NCBI GenBank assembly: GCA_016219275.1
Contig: JACRBM010000050.1
Location: 1 to 61,658, forward strand
DNA: 61,658 nt
Source: Chloroflexota bacterium
GTDB lineage: Bacteria > Chloroflexota > Anaerolineae > UBA4142
Reading direction: 5' to 3'
Below the pieces are notes generated by a model. It did no database searches and was not told the DNA's origin. It saw nothing but the letters and a program-made list of their open reading frames with translations. Position 1 is the first letter of the stretch; every line of letters starts with the position of its first letter. The translations under genes and the position numbers were made by a program. This document shows positions 25,813-57,912 of this stretch, piece after piece.

Positions 25813-25927
25813 TGCTCCCACCACGGATGTCGCGATGACAATCGGGGCTTGACTCTATGAAAATTGCCTCCAGTGCGCGATTGGAATATACTCGCAAGCA
25901 TTGAACAGTAAACCACAGCGAGGAACC

Positions 25928-26734
25928 ATGAGCACAAACGACTATGTTCACGGGTATTCTGGGCGAGAAAGCGACCGTTTGCTCGACCAAGCGAACACAC
26001 TCGCCGAATTATTGCATCACGACACAATCTATCCGGCAGATAGCCAAGTGTTGGAAGCCGGCTGTGGGGTCGGCGCGCAAACGATTATCCTGGCTCAGCA
26101 GAGTCCTCAGGCGCATTTCACATCGGTTGATGTTTCGCCCGAGTCCGTCGAAACAGCGCGGGCACGCGTCGCGCAACAAGGTTTGACAAATGTCACCTTT
26201 CGTACGGAAGATATTTTCGATCTCCCATTTGATGCAAACAGTTTTGATCACATCTTTGTTTGCTTTGTGTTGGAACATCTGCGGCAACCGCTCGAAGCGT
26301 TGGCGCGATTGAAGGTTGTCGTGAAACCTGGGGGGACGCTCACCGTCATCGAAGGCGATCATGCGTCCGCCTATTTTTATCCAGAGAGTCCATTCGCGCA
26401 GCAAACGATTGATTGTTTGGTCAAGATTCAAGCGAGCATGGGCGGCAATGCGTTGATCGGCAGACAACTCTATCCCTTGCTCAAACGCGCGGGATTCAAA
26501 AACATTCGCGTCACGCCGCGCCAGGTCTATGCCGATTCGAGCAGACCCGAATGGGTTGAAGGATTTACCAAGAATACATTCACCGCGATGGTCAATGGCG
26601 CACGAGAGCAGGCGCTCAAACAGGGATTGCTCGATCTTGAGACCTGGGAACGCGGCATCGCCGATTTGCACGCGACCGCCGGCGAAGATGGAACGTTCAG
26701 CTACACCTTTTTCAAAGGCGTCGCGGTCAAGTAG
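25928..26734 (+). CDS. SAM-dependent class I methyltransferase
   Basis: The SAM-binding motif I is VLEAGCGVGAQTI, motif II acidic residue lies in FTSVDVSPESVE, and post-motifs FDHIFVCFVLEHL and LKPGGTLTVIEGDH (here VVKPGGTLTVIEGDH) follow. At 268 residues from the ATG at 25928 it resembles UbiE-like small-molecule methyltransferases. The substrate is not evident. It is followed by a hairpin and an aminotransferase gene. Confidence 0.88.
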   Translation: MSTNDYVHGYSGRESDRLLDQANTLAELLHHDTIYPADSQVLEAGCGVGAQTIILAQQSPQAHFTSVDVSPESVETARARVAQQGLTNVTFRTEDIFDLPFDANSFDHIFVCFVLEHLRQPLEALARLKVVVKPGGTLTVIEGDHASAYFYPESPFAQQTIDCLVKIQASMGGNALIGRQLYPLLKRAGFKNIRVTPRQVYADSSRPEWVEGFTKNTFTAMVNGAREQALKQGLLDLETWERGIADLHATAGEDGTFSYTFFKGVAVK

Positions 26735-28369: not shown

Positions 28370-31027
28370 ATGTCTACGCCAGTTCTAGCCACCAAACTTT
28401 ATATCCCCCCACCGCGTCCTAAAGTTGTCCTCCGCCCCCGCTTGATCGAGCGGCTGAACGCAGGTCTCTCTTCGGGTTGCAAGTTGACCCTCATCTCGGC
28501 TCCTGCCGGTTTTGGCAAAACCGCGTTGGTCAGCGAATGGGTCGCCGGTTGCGAGCGACCAGTCGCTTGGTTGTCGCTGGACGAAGGGGATAGCGACTCC
28601 ACACGCTTTCTGACTTACTTGATCGTTGCTTTGCAGACGATTATGGCGAACATTGGAGCAGGGGTGTTGGGTGTGCTCCAAGCCCCTCAACCGCCATCCA
28701 TCGAAGCGAATCTGACGGCTCTGCTCAATGAAATCACGACCATTCCCCGTGCCGGCAATTTCATCCTCGTCCTTGATGACTACCATGCGATTGATGCCAA
28801 ATCGATTGACAATGCCCTCATCTTTCTGATTGAGCACTTGCCACCACAGATGCACCTGGTGATTGCCACGCGTGAGGATCCACATCTACCCCTGGCTCGA
28901 TTACGCGCCCGGGACCAATTGATCGAACTGCGCGCCGCCGACTTGCGTTTTACTTCCATCGAAGCCGCAGGATTTCTCAACCAGGTGATGGGATTAAGTC
29001 TCTCGGCAGAAAACATCGCCGCACTGGAAACCCGCACCGAAGGATGGATCGCTGGGTTGCAACTCGCCGCGCTTTCAATGCAGGGACATCAAGACACGAC
29101 CGGCTTTATCAAGTCGTTCACCGGCAGTCATCGTTTCGTCCTGGATTATTTGCTCGCCGAAGTTCTGCAACGACAATCCGAAAGCGTTCAATTTTTTTTG
29201 CTACGCACTTCTATTCTCGACCGGATTTGTGGTTCTCTGTGTGATGCCGTTCTGCGCGACTCGGCTGTTGCCGGGCAAGCCACTCTGGAATATCTTGAGC
29301 GCGCCAACTTGTTCATTGTCCCGCTGGATAACGAACGGCATTGGTACCGCTATCATCATCTCTTTGGAGATTTGTTGCGGAAACGGCTGGGATCAAGTCT
29401 CGCCCCTGAAGGAAACGCCGAACTGCATATTCGTGCCAGTGAATGGTATGAAAACAACGGACTGGCGTTTGAAGCCTTTCGTCATGCAACTGCCGCCAAG
29501 GATGTCGAGCGCGCAACGAGATTGATTGAGGGTGAACGGATGCCGCTTCACTTTCCCGGCGCGGTGAACACAATTTTGGATTGGCTGAATGCACTGCCCA
29601 GGCAAGTATTGGATGCAAGACCCGCGTTGTGGTGGCGTTCTGCCGCATTGTCATTGATTGTTGGAATCACCACCGGCGTTCAAGAAAAGTTGCAATCTGC
29701 CGAGAACGGATTGCAAGGCGCGGAGCCGACGGACAAGACGCGCAACCTTATCGGGCGGATTGCCACCGCGCGCGCGACGTTAGCGCTGACGCGTTACGAG
29801 ACTGAAACCATTCTCGTCCAGTCAAAGCGCGCGTTGGAATATCTTGATGCGGACAATTTGTCGGATCGCACTTCGGCGTACTGGACACAGAGTATCGCTT
29901 ATTTTTTTCAAGGCGAGCGCGCCGCCGCCCGCGACGCGGTGAATAACGCCTTGACGCTCGCACAAGCATCGGCGAGTAACTTTGCGCTACTCTTGGCGAC
30001 AAGCACTTTAGCCACGCTACAAGAGATCGAAAACGAACTCGCGCGCGCGGCGGAAACGTATCGGCGCGCGCTCCAGCTTGCCGGGAATCCTCCGCTCGCA
30101 TTCGCTTCTGGCGCGCATCTTGGGCTGGCGCACATTTTTTACGAATGGAACGATTTGGACGCGGCGCAACATCACGGAGAAAACAGTCTCAACCTGGCGC
30201 GGCAGTATGACCGGGTGATTGACCGTTTTATTATCAGCCAAGTCTTCCTAGCCCGCTTGAAACTGGCTCAAGGCGATGTGGATGGTGCGGCGGCAATGTT
30301 GGCGCAGTCCGAACAATCTGCGCGCCAGGAAAACTTTCTCCTGCGCCTGCCGGAAATCGCTACCGCGCAGGTGCCGGTTCTGCTTCGCCAGGGTCAGGTT
30401 GCCACAGCCGCTCAACTGGCTCTGCAATATGAACTCCCGCTCAGCCAGGTACGCGTGCTCATCGCCCAGAACGACCCATCCGCCGCGTTAGCAGTGCTGG
30501 AACCATTTCGCCAAAAAATGGAAGCAAAAGGTTGGGCAGATGAACGACTCAGGGCAATGGTGTTGCAGGCGATCGCTCTGTATGCACACGGCGAAAAGGA
30601 CAAGGCGATGCAAGTTCTGGGCGACGCGCTGGCACTGGCTGAGCCGGGCGGTTTGATTCGTCTCTTTGTGGATGAAGGCGAGCCGATGCGATTGATGATT
30701 TTAGATTTTCGAATTTGTATTGAAAAACAATCGCGCGGCGGAGACAATAAACAGGTTGATTACATAGAAAAACTCTTGTCAGCGTTTCCACAACCTGAAT
30801 CGAAAATCGAAAATCGAAAATCGAAAATTCTTGTAGAGCCATTAAGCGCGCGCGAGTTAGAAGTACTAAAACTGATCGCGCAAGGGCTTTCGAATCGCGA
30901 GATTAGCGAGCGACTGTTCCTCGCCTTGAGTACAATCAAAGGGCACAGCCGCATCATCTTCGACAAGCTCCAAGTTCGCAATCGCACCGAAGCGGTCGCG
31001 CGCGGACGCGCGCTGGGTCTCTTGTAA
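28370..31027 (+). CDS. MalT-type LuxR-family ATP-dependent transcription regulator
   Basis: The STAND-type architecture is clear over 885 residues. The N-terminus LATKLYIPPPRPKVVLRPRL is followed by Walker A APAGFGKTALVSEW (about residues 43-56), the Walker B region FILVLDDYHAI, a long TPR-like array (about 380-760) and a C-terminal LuxR HTH (PLSARELEVLKLIAQGLSNREISERLFLALSTIKGHSRIIFDKL). Between the TPRs and the HTH lies a stretch including ENRKSKIL encoded by a TCGATTTT-family repeat. It is first in a plus-strand block with the NAD(P)-binding, DUF4386, selenoprotein and MDR genes, which it may control. The inducer is unknown. Confidence 0.92.
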   Translation: MSTPVLATKLYIPPPRPKVVLRPRLIERLNAGLSSGCKLTLISAPAGFGKTALVSEWVAGCERPVAWLSLDEGDSDSTRFLTYLIVALQTIMANIGAGVLGVLQAPQPPSIEANLTALLNEITTIPRAGNFILVLDDYHAIDAKSIDNALIFLIEHLPPQMHLVIATREDPHLPLARLRARDQLIELRAADLRFTSIEAAGFLNQVMGLSLSAENIAALETRTEGWIAGLQLAALSMQGHQDTTGFIKSFTGSHRFVLDYLLAEVLQRQSESVQFFLLRTSILDRICGSLCDAVLRDSAVAGQATLEYLERANLFIVPLDNERHWYRYHHLFGDLLRKRLGSSLAPEGNAELHIRASEWYENNGLAFEAFRHATAAKDVERATRLIEGERMPLHFPGAVNTILDWLNALPRQVLDARPALWWRSAALSLIVGITTGVQEKLQSAENGLQGAEPTDKTRNLIGRIATARATLALTRYETETILVQSKRALEYLDADNLSDRTSAYWTQSIAYFFQGERAAARDAVNNALTLAQASASNFALLLATSTLATLQEIENELARAAETYRRALQLAGNPPLAFASGAHLGLAHIFYEWNDLDAAQHHGENSLNLARQYDRVIDRFIISQVFLARLKLAQGDVDGAAAMLAQSEQSARQENFLLRLPEIATAQVPVLLRQGQVATAAQLALQYELPLSQVRVLIAQNDPSAALAVLEPFRQKMEAKGWADERLRAMVLQAIALYAHGEKDKAMQVLGDALALAEPGGLIRLFVDEGEPMRLMILDFRICIEKQSRGGDNKQVDYIEKLLSAFPQPESKIENRKSKILVEPLSARELEVLKLIAQGLSNREISERLFLALSTIKGHSRIIFDKLQVRNRTEAVARGRALGLL

Positions 31028-31142: not shown

Positions 31143-31176
31143 ATTGGCTGTGCATTGAACAAATGGCACAGCCAAT
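31143..31176. promoter_or_regulatory. Hairpin in the leader of the NAD(P)-binding protein gene
   Basis: ATTGGCTGTGC and GCACAGCCAAT are perfect 11-bp arms, followed by TTTTG. It lies 25 bp before the ATG at 31202 and could be a terminator/attenuator. Confidence 0.55.
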
Positions 31177-31201
31177 TTTGTGTCGCCGAAGGGAGATCAA
31201 A

Positions 31202-31891
31202 ATGAAAAAAGTTTGTATCGTAGGTGCTTCTGGAAAACTTGGGCAGTACATGGTGCAACACGCGCTTGACCGGGGCTATGAGGTAGTTGGTGTGTGTCGC
31301 GAACGCAGTGTGAGCAAGCTCGACACATTCAAAGCGCGCATTACGATCATTCCCGGCGCGACGAACGACCGCGCGGTGATCAAGCAAGCAGTCGCCGGGT
31401 GTGATGGAGTGCTCACGGTGCTGGTGCCGTGGGGCAATCAGCATTACTCGACCGGGACCGCGCAAGCCGTACTCGATTACGCACAACCTGGCGCGCGCCT
31501 CATTTTTTCTTGCGGCTGGCACATCACACGCGATGGCAAAGACGTGTACCCGCCATCGTTAAAAAGAGAGGAAAAGATCGCCCGCTGGCTCACACGGATT
31601 GTTCCCTTCATTGATCTTGATGATCAGGTAGAAGCGTGCCGGCGGATTTTTGCCAGCGACACCCGGTGGACGGTCGTGCGTGGGAGCGACCTTGAAGAGG
31701 GCGTGAGCCAGGGATTGCCGGTGTGGAGCAAGCATGTGGGCGATCCAATTCTTGCGAGCAACATGACGCGCCGCGTGGACTATGCGCTGTTCATGGTAGA
31801 TGCGCTTGAGAATGACGAACTCGTTCACCAAGCGCCGGCAATCGTCGGTTGCCAAACTCCTTCGGCGCGCGCTGTACAAACGCACGCCTAA
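31202..31891 (+). CDS. NAD(P)-binding Rossmann protein, NmrA-like
   Basis: A short-chain/NmrA-type protein of 229 residues with the dinucleotide loop KVCIVGASGKLGQYMVQHAL and the strand ending in DGVLTVLVPWG. The active-site Tyr-x-x-x-Lys of classical SDRs is not evident, so it may be a sensor-type or atypical reductase. GGGAG lies eight bases before the ATG at 31202; the frame upstream is less likely. It is followed closely by a small protein gene. Confidence 0.8.
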   Translation: MKKVCIVGASGKLGQYMVQHALDRGYEVVGVCRERSVSKLDTFKARITIIPGATNDRAVIKQAVAGCDGVLTVLVPWGNQHYSTGTAQAVLDYAQPGARLIFSCGWHITRDGKDVYPPSLKREEKIARWLTRIVPFIDLDDQVEACRRIFASDTRWTVVRGSDLEEGVSQGLPVWSKHVGDPILASNMTRRVDYALFMVDALENDELVHQAPAIVGCQTPSARAVQTHA

Positions 31892-31934
31892 GATTTTTGG
31901 GGATGTTGATTCACAGATCAACGAGCAAACCAAA

Positions 31935-32192
31935 ATGCCAAACGAACATGAACCAAGCCAATCACAAGTCTACCAGATCAGAATCAAGGGACATTTGGAT
32001 TCTCAATGGGCAGACTGGTTTGAGGGCATGACCATCACGCTAGAAGAAAACGGCGATACGCTTTTGACCGGCGCGGTGGTTGATCAAGCCGCGTTGCACG
32101 GCTTGCTCAAAAAAGTGCGTGATTTGGGAATGCCATTGGTCTCGGTCAATCGCGTCGAACCCGGGCATCCGACTACGCTTGGGACAAGCTAG
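31935..32192 (+). CDS. Small conserved protein of unknown function
   Basis: An 85-residue protein with a clear pattern: YQIRIKGHLDSQWADWFEGMTITLEENGDTLLTGAVVDQAALHGLLKKVRDLGMPLVSVNRVE. I recall similar small proteins in many Chloroflexota and Actinobacteria genomes, without an assigned function. The fold looks like alpha-beta with a GxVxDQAALHGLL core. It starts at the ATG at 31935, 43 bp after the previous gene. Confidence 0.75.
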   Translation: MPNEHEPSQSQVYQIRIKGHLDSQWADWFEGMTITLEENGDTLLTGAVVDQAALHGLLKKVRDLGMPLVSVNRVEPGHPTTLGTS

Positions 32193-32220: not shown

Positions 32221-32247
32221 TTGGCGTAGGCGGCTTGTTTACGCCAA
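32221..32247. terminator. Small hairpin before the DUF4386 gene
   Basis: TTGGCGTA and TACGCCAA with an 11-base loop, lying between the small-protein gene and DUF4386. Confidence 0.45.
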
Positions 32248-32270
32248 ATCAATCACAACAAGGAGAAAAA

Positions 32271-32993
32271 ATGAACACCAAATCAAGTCCCCATGAGACA
32301 AACAGAACGACCGCAACAATTGTGGGCGTGCTGTACATTATTGGGACGGTTTCAGGTATTCTCAGCGTGGTTTTCACACAATCCATTCTAACGGATCCGG
32401 ATTATCTGCGCCAAGTCGCTGTCCATGAAAATCAAATCATCATCGGACTCCTCTTTGTATTGACGATGGCATTGGCATTGGCGATGGTTCCGGTGATGCT
32501 GTTCCCAATCTTAAAAAAATACAATGAAGTCCTGGCTCTCGGGTATCTTATCTTTCGGGGGGCACTTGAAACGGTTGCCTATATTGCCATGATAGTCACA
32601 CGACTATTCCTAATCATTGTTAGTCAGCAATCTACAGGGGCGGGAACTCAAGCTTCATATTTTCAAACCTTGGGCGCGGTACTCCAATCCGGACATGATT
32701 CGATCAATACTCTGTTGATCATCGTTTTCAGTTTGGATGCGCTAATGCTTTACAGCGTCTTCTATCAATCCAAACTCATCCCGCGCTGGATATCCATTTG
32801 GGGCTTGATCGCGATTGTGATGCACGTGAGCACCGCCTTTTTGATTTTGTTCCGCGTCGTCGCGCCTGGTATGTCGCCGGTTATTTTCGTGATCAACTTT
32901 CCCATCCTCGTTCAAGAAATGGTGATGGCGGTCTGGTTGATCGTAAAAGGATTCAATCCGGCGGCAATCGCAAGTCTGCTTAAAGAGACGTAA
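32271..32993 (+). CDS. DUF4386 membrane protein
   Basis: A 240-residue protein with about six transmembrane helices and family signatures ATIVGVLYIIGTVSGILS, YLIFRGALETVAYIA and YQSKLIPRWISIWGLI. DUF4386 proteins have no known activity. AAGGAG precedes the ATG at 32271. It lies 29 bp before the probable selenoprotein gene in the same operon. AT content is higher than in the Wood-Ljungdahl genes. Confidence 0.88.
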   Translation: MNTKSSPHETNRTTATIVGVLYIIGTVSGILSVVFTQSILTDPDYLRQVAVHENQIIIGLLFVLTMALALAMVPVMLFPILKKYNEVLALGYLIFRGALETVAYIAMIVTRLFLIIVSQQSTGAGTQASYFQTLGAVLQSGHDSINTLLIIVFSLDALMLYSVFYQSKLIPRWISIWGLIAIVMHVSTAFLILFRVVAPGMSPVIFVINFPILVQEMVMAVWLIVKGFNPAAIASLLKET

Positions 32994-33022
32994 ATAATCG
33001 CGCGACACAAGGAGTCGAAACG

Positions 33023-33877
33023 ATGATCGCTCAAGAGAAAAAAATCTCGGCGTTGGGAACGGTCCGAACATTTCTGAAGGAAGGAACCTGATCGCAAACA
33101 ATTATGGGGGTCGTTGACCGCTCATTCGATCAGCCGTTGAAACTTGAAGAGTGCGCCGTTATGCAATTAGCCGGCGGAATAATGGGTAACGGCTATCAAT
33201 GTGGAATGTTGTGGGGCGGAGCACTCGCCGCCGGCGCGCAAGCATATCGGCTTTATGGCGCGGGCGCGCGCGCAGAAGTTGAGGCATTGCTGGCATCGCA
33301 AAAACTTGTCGAAGCGTTTCACACGCGCGCTAAAGAAATCAATTGCGCTGAAATCACCGAGATGGAATGGAAGAAACCATCCAAAGGTCAGGTGGTCAAG
33401 TTTCTCGCCAAAGGCGGACCGATTGGTTGTTTTCGTTTGGCGGCGGATTACGCGCAGATTGCATTCGATACGATTAACCACACGCTTGGCGAAAAGCAGA
33501 TCAATATGCCAACTCAGCCGGTCAGTTGCGCGGCAATGCTGGCGCAGAAGATGGGCGTATCAGAAATGCACGTGGTCATGGCGGCAGGACTTGCCGGTGG
33601 CATCGGTCTAAGCGGTGGCGCGTGTGGCGTATTGGGCGCCGCAATTTGGTTCAAAGGAATCAACACGCTCAAGAATGGCGGCAAACAAAGTTTCAATCTC
33701 ACGGCTCCTTCAGCCGAGTTGGAAAAATTCCTGACGGCTTCCGACTATGAATTCGAATGTGCCAAAATCGTTGGGCGCAAGTTTGAGAATGTAGCCGACC
33801 ACGCGAGTTATGTGCGCGATGGTGGTTGTGCGAAAATCATACAAGAACTCGCCGCGTGTTTGGCAACACAAATATAA
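33023..33877 (+). CDS. Probable selenoprotein of the C_GCAxxG_C_C redox family (tandem domains)
   Basis: An ATG at 33023 with AAGGAG seven bases upstream opens a frame through MIAQEKKISALGTVRTFLKEGT to a TGA at 33089-33091. The same frame then continues SQTIMGVVDRSFDQPLKLEEC to 33877, giving 284 residues if TGA is read as selenocysteine 23. The protein is two tandem C_GCAxxG_C_C units: unit 1 has U23 and the LAGGIMGNGYQCG region (C60), unit 2 has C169 (PVSCAAML) and AAGLAGGIGLSGGACGVLG (C201). Aligning the units puts U23 on C169. A SECIS-like hairpin follows the TGA. A start at the internal ATG 33104 lacks a ribosome-binding site and would lose the first redox residue. Other Cys residues (C44, C108, C136 and C-terminal ones) also fit the family. 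Alternatives are a Cys-to-stop mutation or a sequencing error. Confidence 0.75.
33089..33132 (+). promoter_or_regulatory. Candidate bacterial SECIS element
   Basis: The TGA begins a hairpin. TGATCG (33089-33094) pairs with CGATCA (33127-33132), ATG (33104-33106) with CAT (33123-33125), and GGTC (33109-33112) with GACC (33116-33119) around a GTT loop. The apical loop starts 21 bases after the TGA and its first base is G. These values fit the known bacterial SECIS pattern of a short upper stem, a small G-containing loop and a 16-37 base spacing. Confidence 0.65.
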
Positions 33878-33892
33878 ACGTAGGGAATTCCA

Positions 33893-34828
33893 ATGAAAGC
33901 AGTCGTGTACAAAAAGTTTGGTTCGCCAGATGTTCTCGAACTCAAAGAGATCGAGAAACCAACGCCGAAGGATCAAGAGGTGTCAGTCAAAATTCATGCC
34001 ACCACCGTCACCATCGGCGACACGATCATGCGGAGTTTCAATCTACCGAACATCTCTGGCTGGCAGAAATTCATGGCGCGTCTGATCCTGGGATGGCGCA
34101 AACCCAAACATCCGATCCTGGGAATGGAACTCGCCGGAGAAATTGAGTCCGTGGGGAAAAAAGTGACGCGCTTTAAACCGGGCGACCCAGTTTTCGCGTC
34201 CACCTTCGCCGTGAATTTTGGTGGGCATGCCGAGTACAAATGCCTGCCCGAAAACGGGGTGATCGCGATCAAATCAGCAAACCTCACTTACGACCAAGCC
34301 GCCGCCGTCCCAGGCGCGGGGCAGACGGCTCTGCAATGTCTCAAAAAGGGAAAAATCCGGCGCGGACAAAAAATTCTGATCTATGGCGCGTCCGGCGCGG
34401 TCGGCACGTATGCAGTGCAGATTGCCAGCCGCCACTTTGGGGCGGAAGTGACCGGCGTATGCAGTGGCGCAAACCTGGAACTGGTGAAATCGCTGGGAGC
34501 GAACCAGGTGATGGATTATACCCGGCAGGATTTCACGCAAAGCGGCGAGAGGTACGATGTGATTTTCGACGCGGTTGGTAAACTTTCACCAGCGCAGGGA
34601 AAAAAGGCGCTCAAGCCGGGCGGCGTCTACCTCAACGTCCATGCCGACTCGGACGGCGGCGATAATCTCGAAAACCTACTCGCGCTCAAAGGATTGGTCG
34701 AGGCGGGCAAGCTCAAACCGGTTATTGACCGGGTTTATCCGTTGGAACAAATTGTCGAGGCGCATCGCTATGTTGAGCAAGGGCATAAAAAAGGCAATGT
34801 GGTCATCACTTTGGAGGAACACTCATGA
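33893..34828 (+). CDS. MDR-family zinc-independent quinone oxidoreductase-like NAD(P)H protein (1)
   Basis: A 311-residue medium-chain dehydrogenase/reductase. It has the GroES-like N-terminus [23 protein letters not shown] and the cofactor loop [19 protein letters not shown]. The zinc ligands of alcohol dehydrogenases are absent, which fits NADPH:quinone or enone reductases. Its stop overlaps the start of the next gene by four bases (ATGA). The two proteins are clear paralogues, indicating tandem duplication. Confidence 0.9.
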
Positions 34829-52419: not shown

Positions 52420-52492
52420 GCCACCTTAGCTCAATCGGTAGAGCAGCCGCATCGTAAGCGGCCGGTTTTCAGTTCAAGTCTGAAAGGTGGCT
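52420..52492 (+). tRNA. tRNA-Thr (anticodon CGT)
   Basis: All four arms fold. Acceptor GCCACCT pairs with AGGTGGC. The D stem is GCTC/GAGC. The anticodon stem GCCGC/GCGGC has loop ATCGTAA, giving anticodon CGT for codon ACG. The T stem TTCAG/CTGAA has loop TTCAAGT. The 73 bases lack an encoded CCA. Confidence 0.95.
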
Positions 52493-57685: not shown

Positions 57686-57912
57686 AAAAGAAAAACCGGC
57701 TCACCCTGGGAGTTGATTCTCACCGTCTAGCTTGCGCTGACGGAGTAGCACCGACTTACATCGGAGCAACAGGTCCAGGACTTACAAGTCCGGTCAATCA
57801 TCATTATACGGCATTCATAGTTTAGCGTCAAGCGCGTAAAATGCCCAATCAAATCGCAGTCATCGCGCATCATTTGTTCGCTGGGATTGAGGGAGTTGGC
57901 TGAAAGGGTGAA
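57686..57912. other. Intergenic gap with second direct-repeat copy
   Basis: It contains small hairpins (GGACTTACAAGTCC near 57777) and, at 57864-57900, the second copy of the helicase 3' end. No gene is supported. The second copy ends 12 bases before the next ATG. Confidence 0.6.
57864..57900. repeat. 37-bp direct repeat, copy 2
   Basis: Near-identical to 57032-57068 (35 of 37 bases). Confidence 0.85.

Follow-up and report, generated by a model that had tools for sequence, protein, structure and literature searches.

A gene of a Chloroflexota bacterium very probably uses an in-frame UGA codon to place selenocysteine (Sec) in a protein built of two tandem C_GCAxxG_C_C domains. The gene lies in the window, by which we mean the whole stretch of 61,658 nucleotides that was analyzed, and the codon in question begins at position 33089. 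Recoding of this UGA as selenocysteine, which the original prediction had proposed from the letters of the DNA, is strongly supported by the sel genes of the organism, the conservation of the TGA among homologues, the alignment of the recoded position with cysteine, and the covariation and synonymous constraint of a hairpin that follows the codon. The features of the gene are as follows.

33009 to 33014, plus strand: Shine-Dalgarno sequence AAGGAG, seen in the sequence; an AGGAG- or GGAG-like motif is equally spaced before the start in nearly all homologues
33023 to 33877, plus strand: predicted coding sequence of the tandem C_GCAxxG_C_C selenoprotein, 284 residues including Sec23, TAA stop
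33089 to 33091, plus strand: in-frame UGA, proposed Sec23; TGA in 13 other tandem homologues, aligned with the first cysteine of the family
33050 to 33487 (borders approximate), plus strand: domain 1, with Sec23, Cys60, Cys108, and Cys136; Pfam stretch 23 to 147, cysteines invariant
33509 to 33865 (borders approximate), plus strand: domain 2, with Cys169, Cys201, Cys246, and Cys269; NCBIfam stretch 175 to 275, cysteines invariant, alignment

The reading frame continues through the UGA codon

The ATG at 33023 opens a frame in which TGA is codon 23, and 261 sense codons then lead to the TAA at 33875 to 33877. An ATG with AAGGAG ahead of it, a TGA at codon 23, and a two-domain frame beyond had been read from the sequence originally, and our translation and domain searches confirmed all the coordinates and both PF09719 stretches. 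Judged from base composition, an open run of 262 codons following a random TGA has a probability of about 3e−5. The Pfam model PF09719 (C_GCAxxG_C_C) matches the product in these two stretches (6.1e−18; 65.5 bits against a cut-off of 27) and is matched by 9/9 members of one homologue alignment. The NCBIfam model TIGR01909, named "C-GCAxxG-C-C family (seleno)protein," gives 47.3 bits, just under its curated cut-off of 47.4, a marginal shortfall that is expected because the tandem form is divergent.

The bias toward differences at the third codon position is strong on both sides of the TGA when the gene is compared with 12 homologues. Summed over the 14 codons preceding the TGA, the differences at codon positions 1, 2, and 3 number 34, 16, and 87; the codons ahead of the TGA are thus translated and conserved.

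The UGA codon is conserved and takes the place of a cysteine

Searches of the relatives' genomes, of genome contigs, and at the level of the class yielded 13 other tandem homologues in other Chloroflexota genomes, 12 of them full length and one (L104, in genome G564) cut by a contig end. The tandem homologues are 50 to 85% identical, and all 13 have TGA at precisely the codon-23 position, with cysteine there in none (0/13). One of them, L036 from Chloroflexi bacterium RBG_16_57_11, came from the search of genome contigs. A 14th copy (L105/L016; G146:C102) looks degraded, being interrupted by frame shifts and a single TAG and carrying an insertion, and it is unreadable at the Sec position. No cysteine version of the Sec/Cys tandem family was found among 149 relatives, 400 genomes of the phylum, and 396 genomes of the class, which are overlapping samples.

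All eight Cys/Sec positions, U23/C60/C108/C136 and C169/C201/C246/C269, are invariant in 12 aligned sequences. A further alignment brought together domain 1, domain 2, the single-domain paralogue from the same genome, an all-Cys tandem protein, and single-domain relatives. Its four cysteine columns coincide, and domain 1 has U in the first of them (column letters UCCUUUUUCC). The residue aligned with U23 is cysteine in domain 2, the paralogue, and the all-Cys tandem proteins; in single-domain relatives it is likewise U. The TGA thus falls where it had been said to fall, at the position of the first redox cysteine of domain 2, and cysteine is conserved there in homologous domains. In the class, many single-domain PF09719 genes (L017 and L084 to L091) likewise have TGA at the codon of the first cysteine, and the family's use of Sec is widespread in Anaerolineae-type genomes; hence, Sec at this site is a habit of the family, and the Sec/Cys tandem protein is one architecture within a Sec-using PF09719 family.

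A hairpin behind the UGA codon is conserved as RNA

33104 to 33125, plus strand: SECIS-like hairpin of 9 bp with one bulge and the loop GUU; unguided RNAalifold consensus, compensatory pair, synonymous constraint
33113 to 33115, plus strand: apical loop GTT, with G first, 21 nt past the UGA; sequence, with limits from PMC13188914

Published limits for bacterial SECIS elements are a loop of 3 to 9 nt with G among the first two, a distance of 16 to 37 nt, and a free energy of −7.5 kcal/mol or lower (PMC13188914). The hairpin of the window, with GGTC-GTT-GACC at 33109 to 33119, lies within these limits (loop GUU, 21 nt, −8.3 kcal/mol for the upper hairpin at 33104 to 33125), as originally proposed. 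This agreement is not distinctive, however: our own implementation of the limits also accepts 39% of 500 TGAs drawn at random from the window, and the mere presence of a hairpin is therefore weak evidence. The evidential weight of the hairpin rests on covariation and synonymous constraint instead.

With no input but 48 bases of each of 13 tandem sequences, counted from the TGA, RNAalifold arrives unguided at a consensus that is the upper hairpin, in which columns 16 to 24 pair with columns 28 to 37 and 91.5% of the cells are paired. A compensatory change is seen at pair 21-31, where six sequences have C-G and five have G-C. Since some of the changes at this pair alter the protein (G..R to S..D), the RNA is preserved at a cost to the amino acid sequence. 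Covariation scores 0.228 compared with a shuffled mean of 0.151, and 0/500 shuffles reach 0.228, although related sequences can exceed shuffles. Sliding the partners by 1 to 3 columns lowers the pairing to 18 to 54%. Codons that specify the same amino acid differ at a rate of 0.16 in the hairpin and 0.50 elsewhere. Two homologues, L037 and L103, have a common shifted hairpin of different sequence that is fully re-paired (GTTGAG-AGTT-CTCAAC), and the hairpin of L012 is weak. The window's minimum free energy fold also has a lower stem in which the TGA is base-paired, but this stem is not conserved among homologues, and we rejected it. Hence, of the structure first described, the GGTC/GACC upper stem and the G-first loop at 21 nt are retained, and the stem starting at the TGA is given up.

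The organism has the machinery to decode UGA as selenocysteine

The host genome (6.16 Mb in 107 contigs, 98% complete) contains selA, selB, selC, and selD, spread over four contigs, so that the whole set whose presence the prediction called for was found together. SelA scores 585 bits, SelB 335 bits (above the cut-off), and SelD 366 bits, and the tRNA-Sec was found with Rfam (70.6 bits) and with ARAGORN (tRNA-SeC, anticodon tca). The host SelD gene (L030, 1482 to 2500) has an in-frame TGA of its own and reads MCAGUASKLG, the Sec-type enzyme, which we take as an independent sign that this organism decodes UGA as Sec. SelA is above the cut-off in 11/13 screened genomes that carry the tandem TGA gene; the two carriers without a detected selA, G555 (87% complete) and G564 (70%), are incomplete genomes. 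Relatives that lack the tandem gene often have SelA too, so that it shows capacity and not a specific association. In the window, TGA terminates 12/36 long stop-to-stop frames, so that the recoding is a local exception to the use of UGA as a stop.

Could the UGA at 33089 nevertheless be a true stop? The gene would then start at the ATG at 33104, five codons past the TGA, which opens a frame of 257 amino acids that a standard gene finder would call, and the 22 codons upstream would be a leader or a remnant. These codons, however, are conserved as protein, with third-position bias, in 12 homologues, and they are preceded by a ribosome-binding site, of which there is none before the ATG at 33104. 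In 13 homologues the TGA is never replaced by another stop or by a sense codon, a constancy that a plain stop would not require, and a start at 33104 would cost domain 1 the first of its four conserved cysteine positions. We consider a true stop highly improbable. The draft state of the source genome, an assembly in 107 contigs, might suggest a nonsense mutation, an assembly error, or a pseudogene, to which we give next to no credence: 13 other genomes have TGA at this codon, with purifying selection on both sides, which refutes mutation or error and also disposes of a misread base at 33089. Reading of the UGA as an amino acid other than Sec, by suppression or an altered genetic code, would keep the frame open just as well, since any code in which UGA is a residue does so. 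It is scarcely credible given that TGA ends a third of the long frames in the window, that the Sec system is complete, that the aligned position has cysteine, and that the hairpin is conserved.

With UGA 33089 read as selenocysteine, SelB, guided by the hairpin at 33104 to 33125, would deliver selenocysteinyl-tRNA to the codon. The product would be a cytoplasmic selenoprotein of 284 residues with two tandem C_GCAxxG_C_C domains, in which Sec would occupy the position of the first active cysteine of domain 1 and domain 2 would retain its four cysteines.

The gene lies among conserved neighbors

28370 to 31027, plus strand: MalT-like LuxR-family regulator, conserved neighbor; Pfam TPR_MalT and GerE, relatives in 6 other loci
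31163 to 31891, plus strand: NAD(P)-binding (NmrA/NAD_binding_10) protein, conserved neighbor; Pfam, relatives in 3 other loci
31800 to 32192, plus strand: protein of 130 amino acids, conserved neighbor; no Pfam match or family, relatives in 7 other loci
32235 to 32993, plus strand: DUF4386 protein, conserved neighbor; ends 29 bases before the start codon of the selenoprotein gene, relatives in 6 other loci
33893 to 34828, plus strand: zinc-binding-dehydrogenase/quinone-oxidoreductase-like enzyme 1; begins 15 bases past the TAA
34825 to 35814, plus strand: zinc-binding-dehydrogenase/quinone-oxidoreductase-like enzyme 2; overlaps enzyme 1 by 4 bases

Relatives of the oxidoreductases occur near tandem homologues in 9 other loci, and DUF6326 is also present in some of the homologue neighborhoods. 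The two quinone-oxidoreductase-like enzymes are probably cotranscribed with the tandem gene. An operon link with the neighbors is suggestive only, because the neighbor families are common. Searches of plasmids and viral contigs gave no match to the tandem gene, which by those searches is neither mobile nor viral.

Elsewhere, the window contains an Rfam DUF3800-III RNA on the minus strand (57693 to 57796; 67 bits against a gathering score of 43.8), a tRNA-Thr with the anticodon cgt (52420 to 52492), and a methyltransferase gene (25901 to 26734). NCBIfam places the methyltransferase nearest to models for selenoprotein methyltransferases (NF047649 and others), but at scores far under their cut-offs, and it is probably an ordinary methyltransferase.

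Possible function of the two domains

The AlphaFold2 model of the tandem protein is all-helical (mean pLDDT 76.9, pTM 0.82). A plain Foldseek search of the model against the PDB returned nothing significant, and no sequence match was found among solved structures. No signal peptide, Tat motif, or CxxCH heme motif is evident in the translation, and hence a soluble cytoplasmic redox role would fit best. The function is moderately constrained and presumably is a redox function with NAD(P)H-dependent partners, possibly with an iron center like that of the distantly related split-Soret cytochrome c. We infer the actual insertion of selenium and, more weakly, a role as a redox or electron-transfer protein. 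Sec23 with Cys60, Cys108, and Cys136 would form one redox or iron-binding site and Cys169, Cys201, Cys246, and Cys269 another, and both might work with the NAD(P)H-dependent quinone-oxidoreductase-like enzymes under the MalT/LuxR-type regulator.

An alternative to a selenol/thiol function, which leaves the insertion of Sec untouched, is that each domain binds an iron center as in split-Soret cytochrome c and that Sec23 ligates or neighbors the metal. The iron center of the split-Soret structure 1h21 is presumably a cluster of the iron-sulfur type with non-heme cysteines as ligands. Split-Soret-like proteins of the same genomes exceed the PF09719 cut-off and match 1h21 with the four cysteine positions aligned; the one in the host genome (G000:C40) scores 44.6 bits with PF09719 and matches 1h21 at 9e−32, with all four C_GCAxxG_C_C cysteines aligned. 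The model of the tandem protein compares with 1h21 at a modest Z of 8.0, within the range below about 13 that may be chance for helical proteins, the Foldseek result was not significant, and a direct profile comparison with the split-Soret-like proteins is weak (probability 4.7), if in register at the GCAxxG motif. We regard this alternative to selenol/thiol chemistry as unlikely. A more far-reaching version is more doubtful and is offered as speculation: the C_GCAxxG_C_C domain would be an iron-center fold common with split-Soret cytochrome c, Sec would be a ligand or direct partner of the iron center, a second, all-Cys center would lie in the same chain, and the two would form a selenium/sulfur electron relay for NAD(P)H-dependent oxidoreductases.

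In another genome, a split-Soret-like C_GCAxxG protein (L093; G028:C3:7500-9300, minus strand) also has an in-frame TGA, reading GAUMYGAF, where the relatives L080 and L083 have cysteine (GACCYGAF and DACCYGAF). L093 is likely a selenocysteine form of a split-Soret-cytochrome-like protein.

Relation to known selenoproteins

Reviews already catalogue two kinds of C-GCAxxG-C-C family selenoprotein, form 1 and form 2, with a single Sec in each (PMC13188914, PMC9312934); the use of Sec in the PF09719 family is already known and not new. WP_012158890.1 and MGD8741185.1 are accessions of the catalogued forms. The catalogued forms (PF09719/TIGR01909) share the Pfam domain and the single Sec with the tandem protein. 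The tables give no motif or architecture for them, whereas the tandem protein has Sec in domain 1 and an all-Cys domain 2 and occurs in Anaerolineae-type Chloroflexota. Two C_GCAxxG_C_C domains per chain are also found in the all-Cys PF09719 tandem proteins L075 to L078 from the same class, but these are distant from the Sec/Cys tandem protein (hhalign probability 47), lack the TGA, and are not its cysteine orthologues. Domain 2 matches the DVU_1555 family (NF045669) at 6.9e−11; this is a single-domain model of 140 positions, and the 42 bits are below its curated cut-off of 103. Split-Soret cytochrome c (PDB 1h21) has a common PF09719-type domain and may have a common fold, but the split-Soret relatives that we saw have heme motifs and an export signal, and the tandem protein has neither.

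The original prediction knew of no described selenoprotein in this tandem form. We found no description of it in the open-access literature searched, and primary papers outside that search may contain one; the claim stands to that extent for the tandem form and does not extend to the family, whose selenoproteins are in the catalogues. What appears to be new is the conserved tandem Sec/Cys architecture with its strictly conserved TGA, its hairpin, its lineage, and its neighborhood.

Gene finders likely misannotate such genes by starting past the UGA, which makes it easy to overlook the family and its operon. A chain that combines a Sec domain with a Cys domain offers a natural comparison of selenium and sulfur within one fold. 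If the link to split-Soret cytochrome c is true, it would give the uncharacterized C_GCAxxG_C_C selenoproteins a testable chemical role, either in an iron center or in selenol/thiol redox chemistry.
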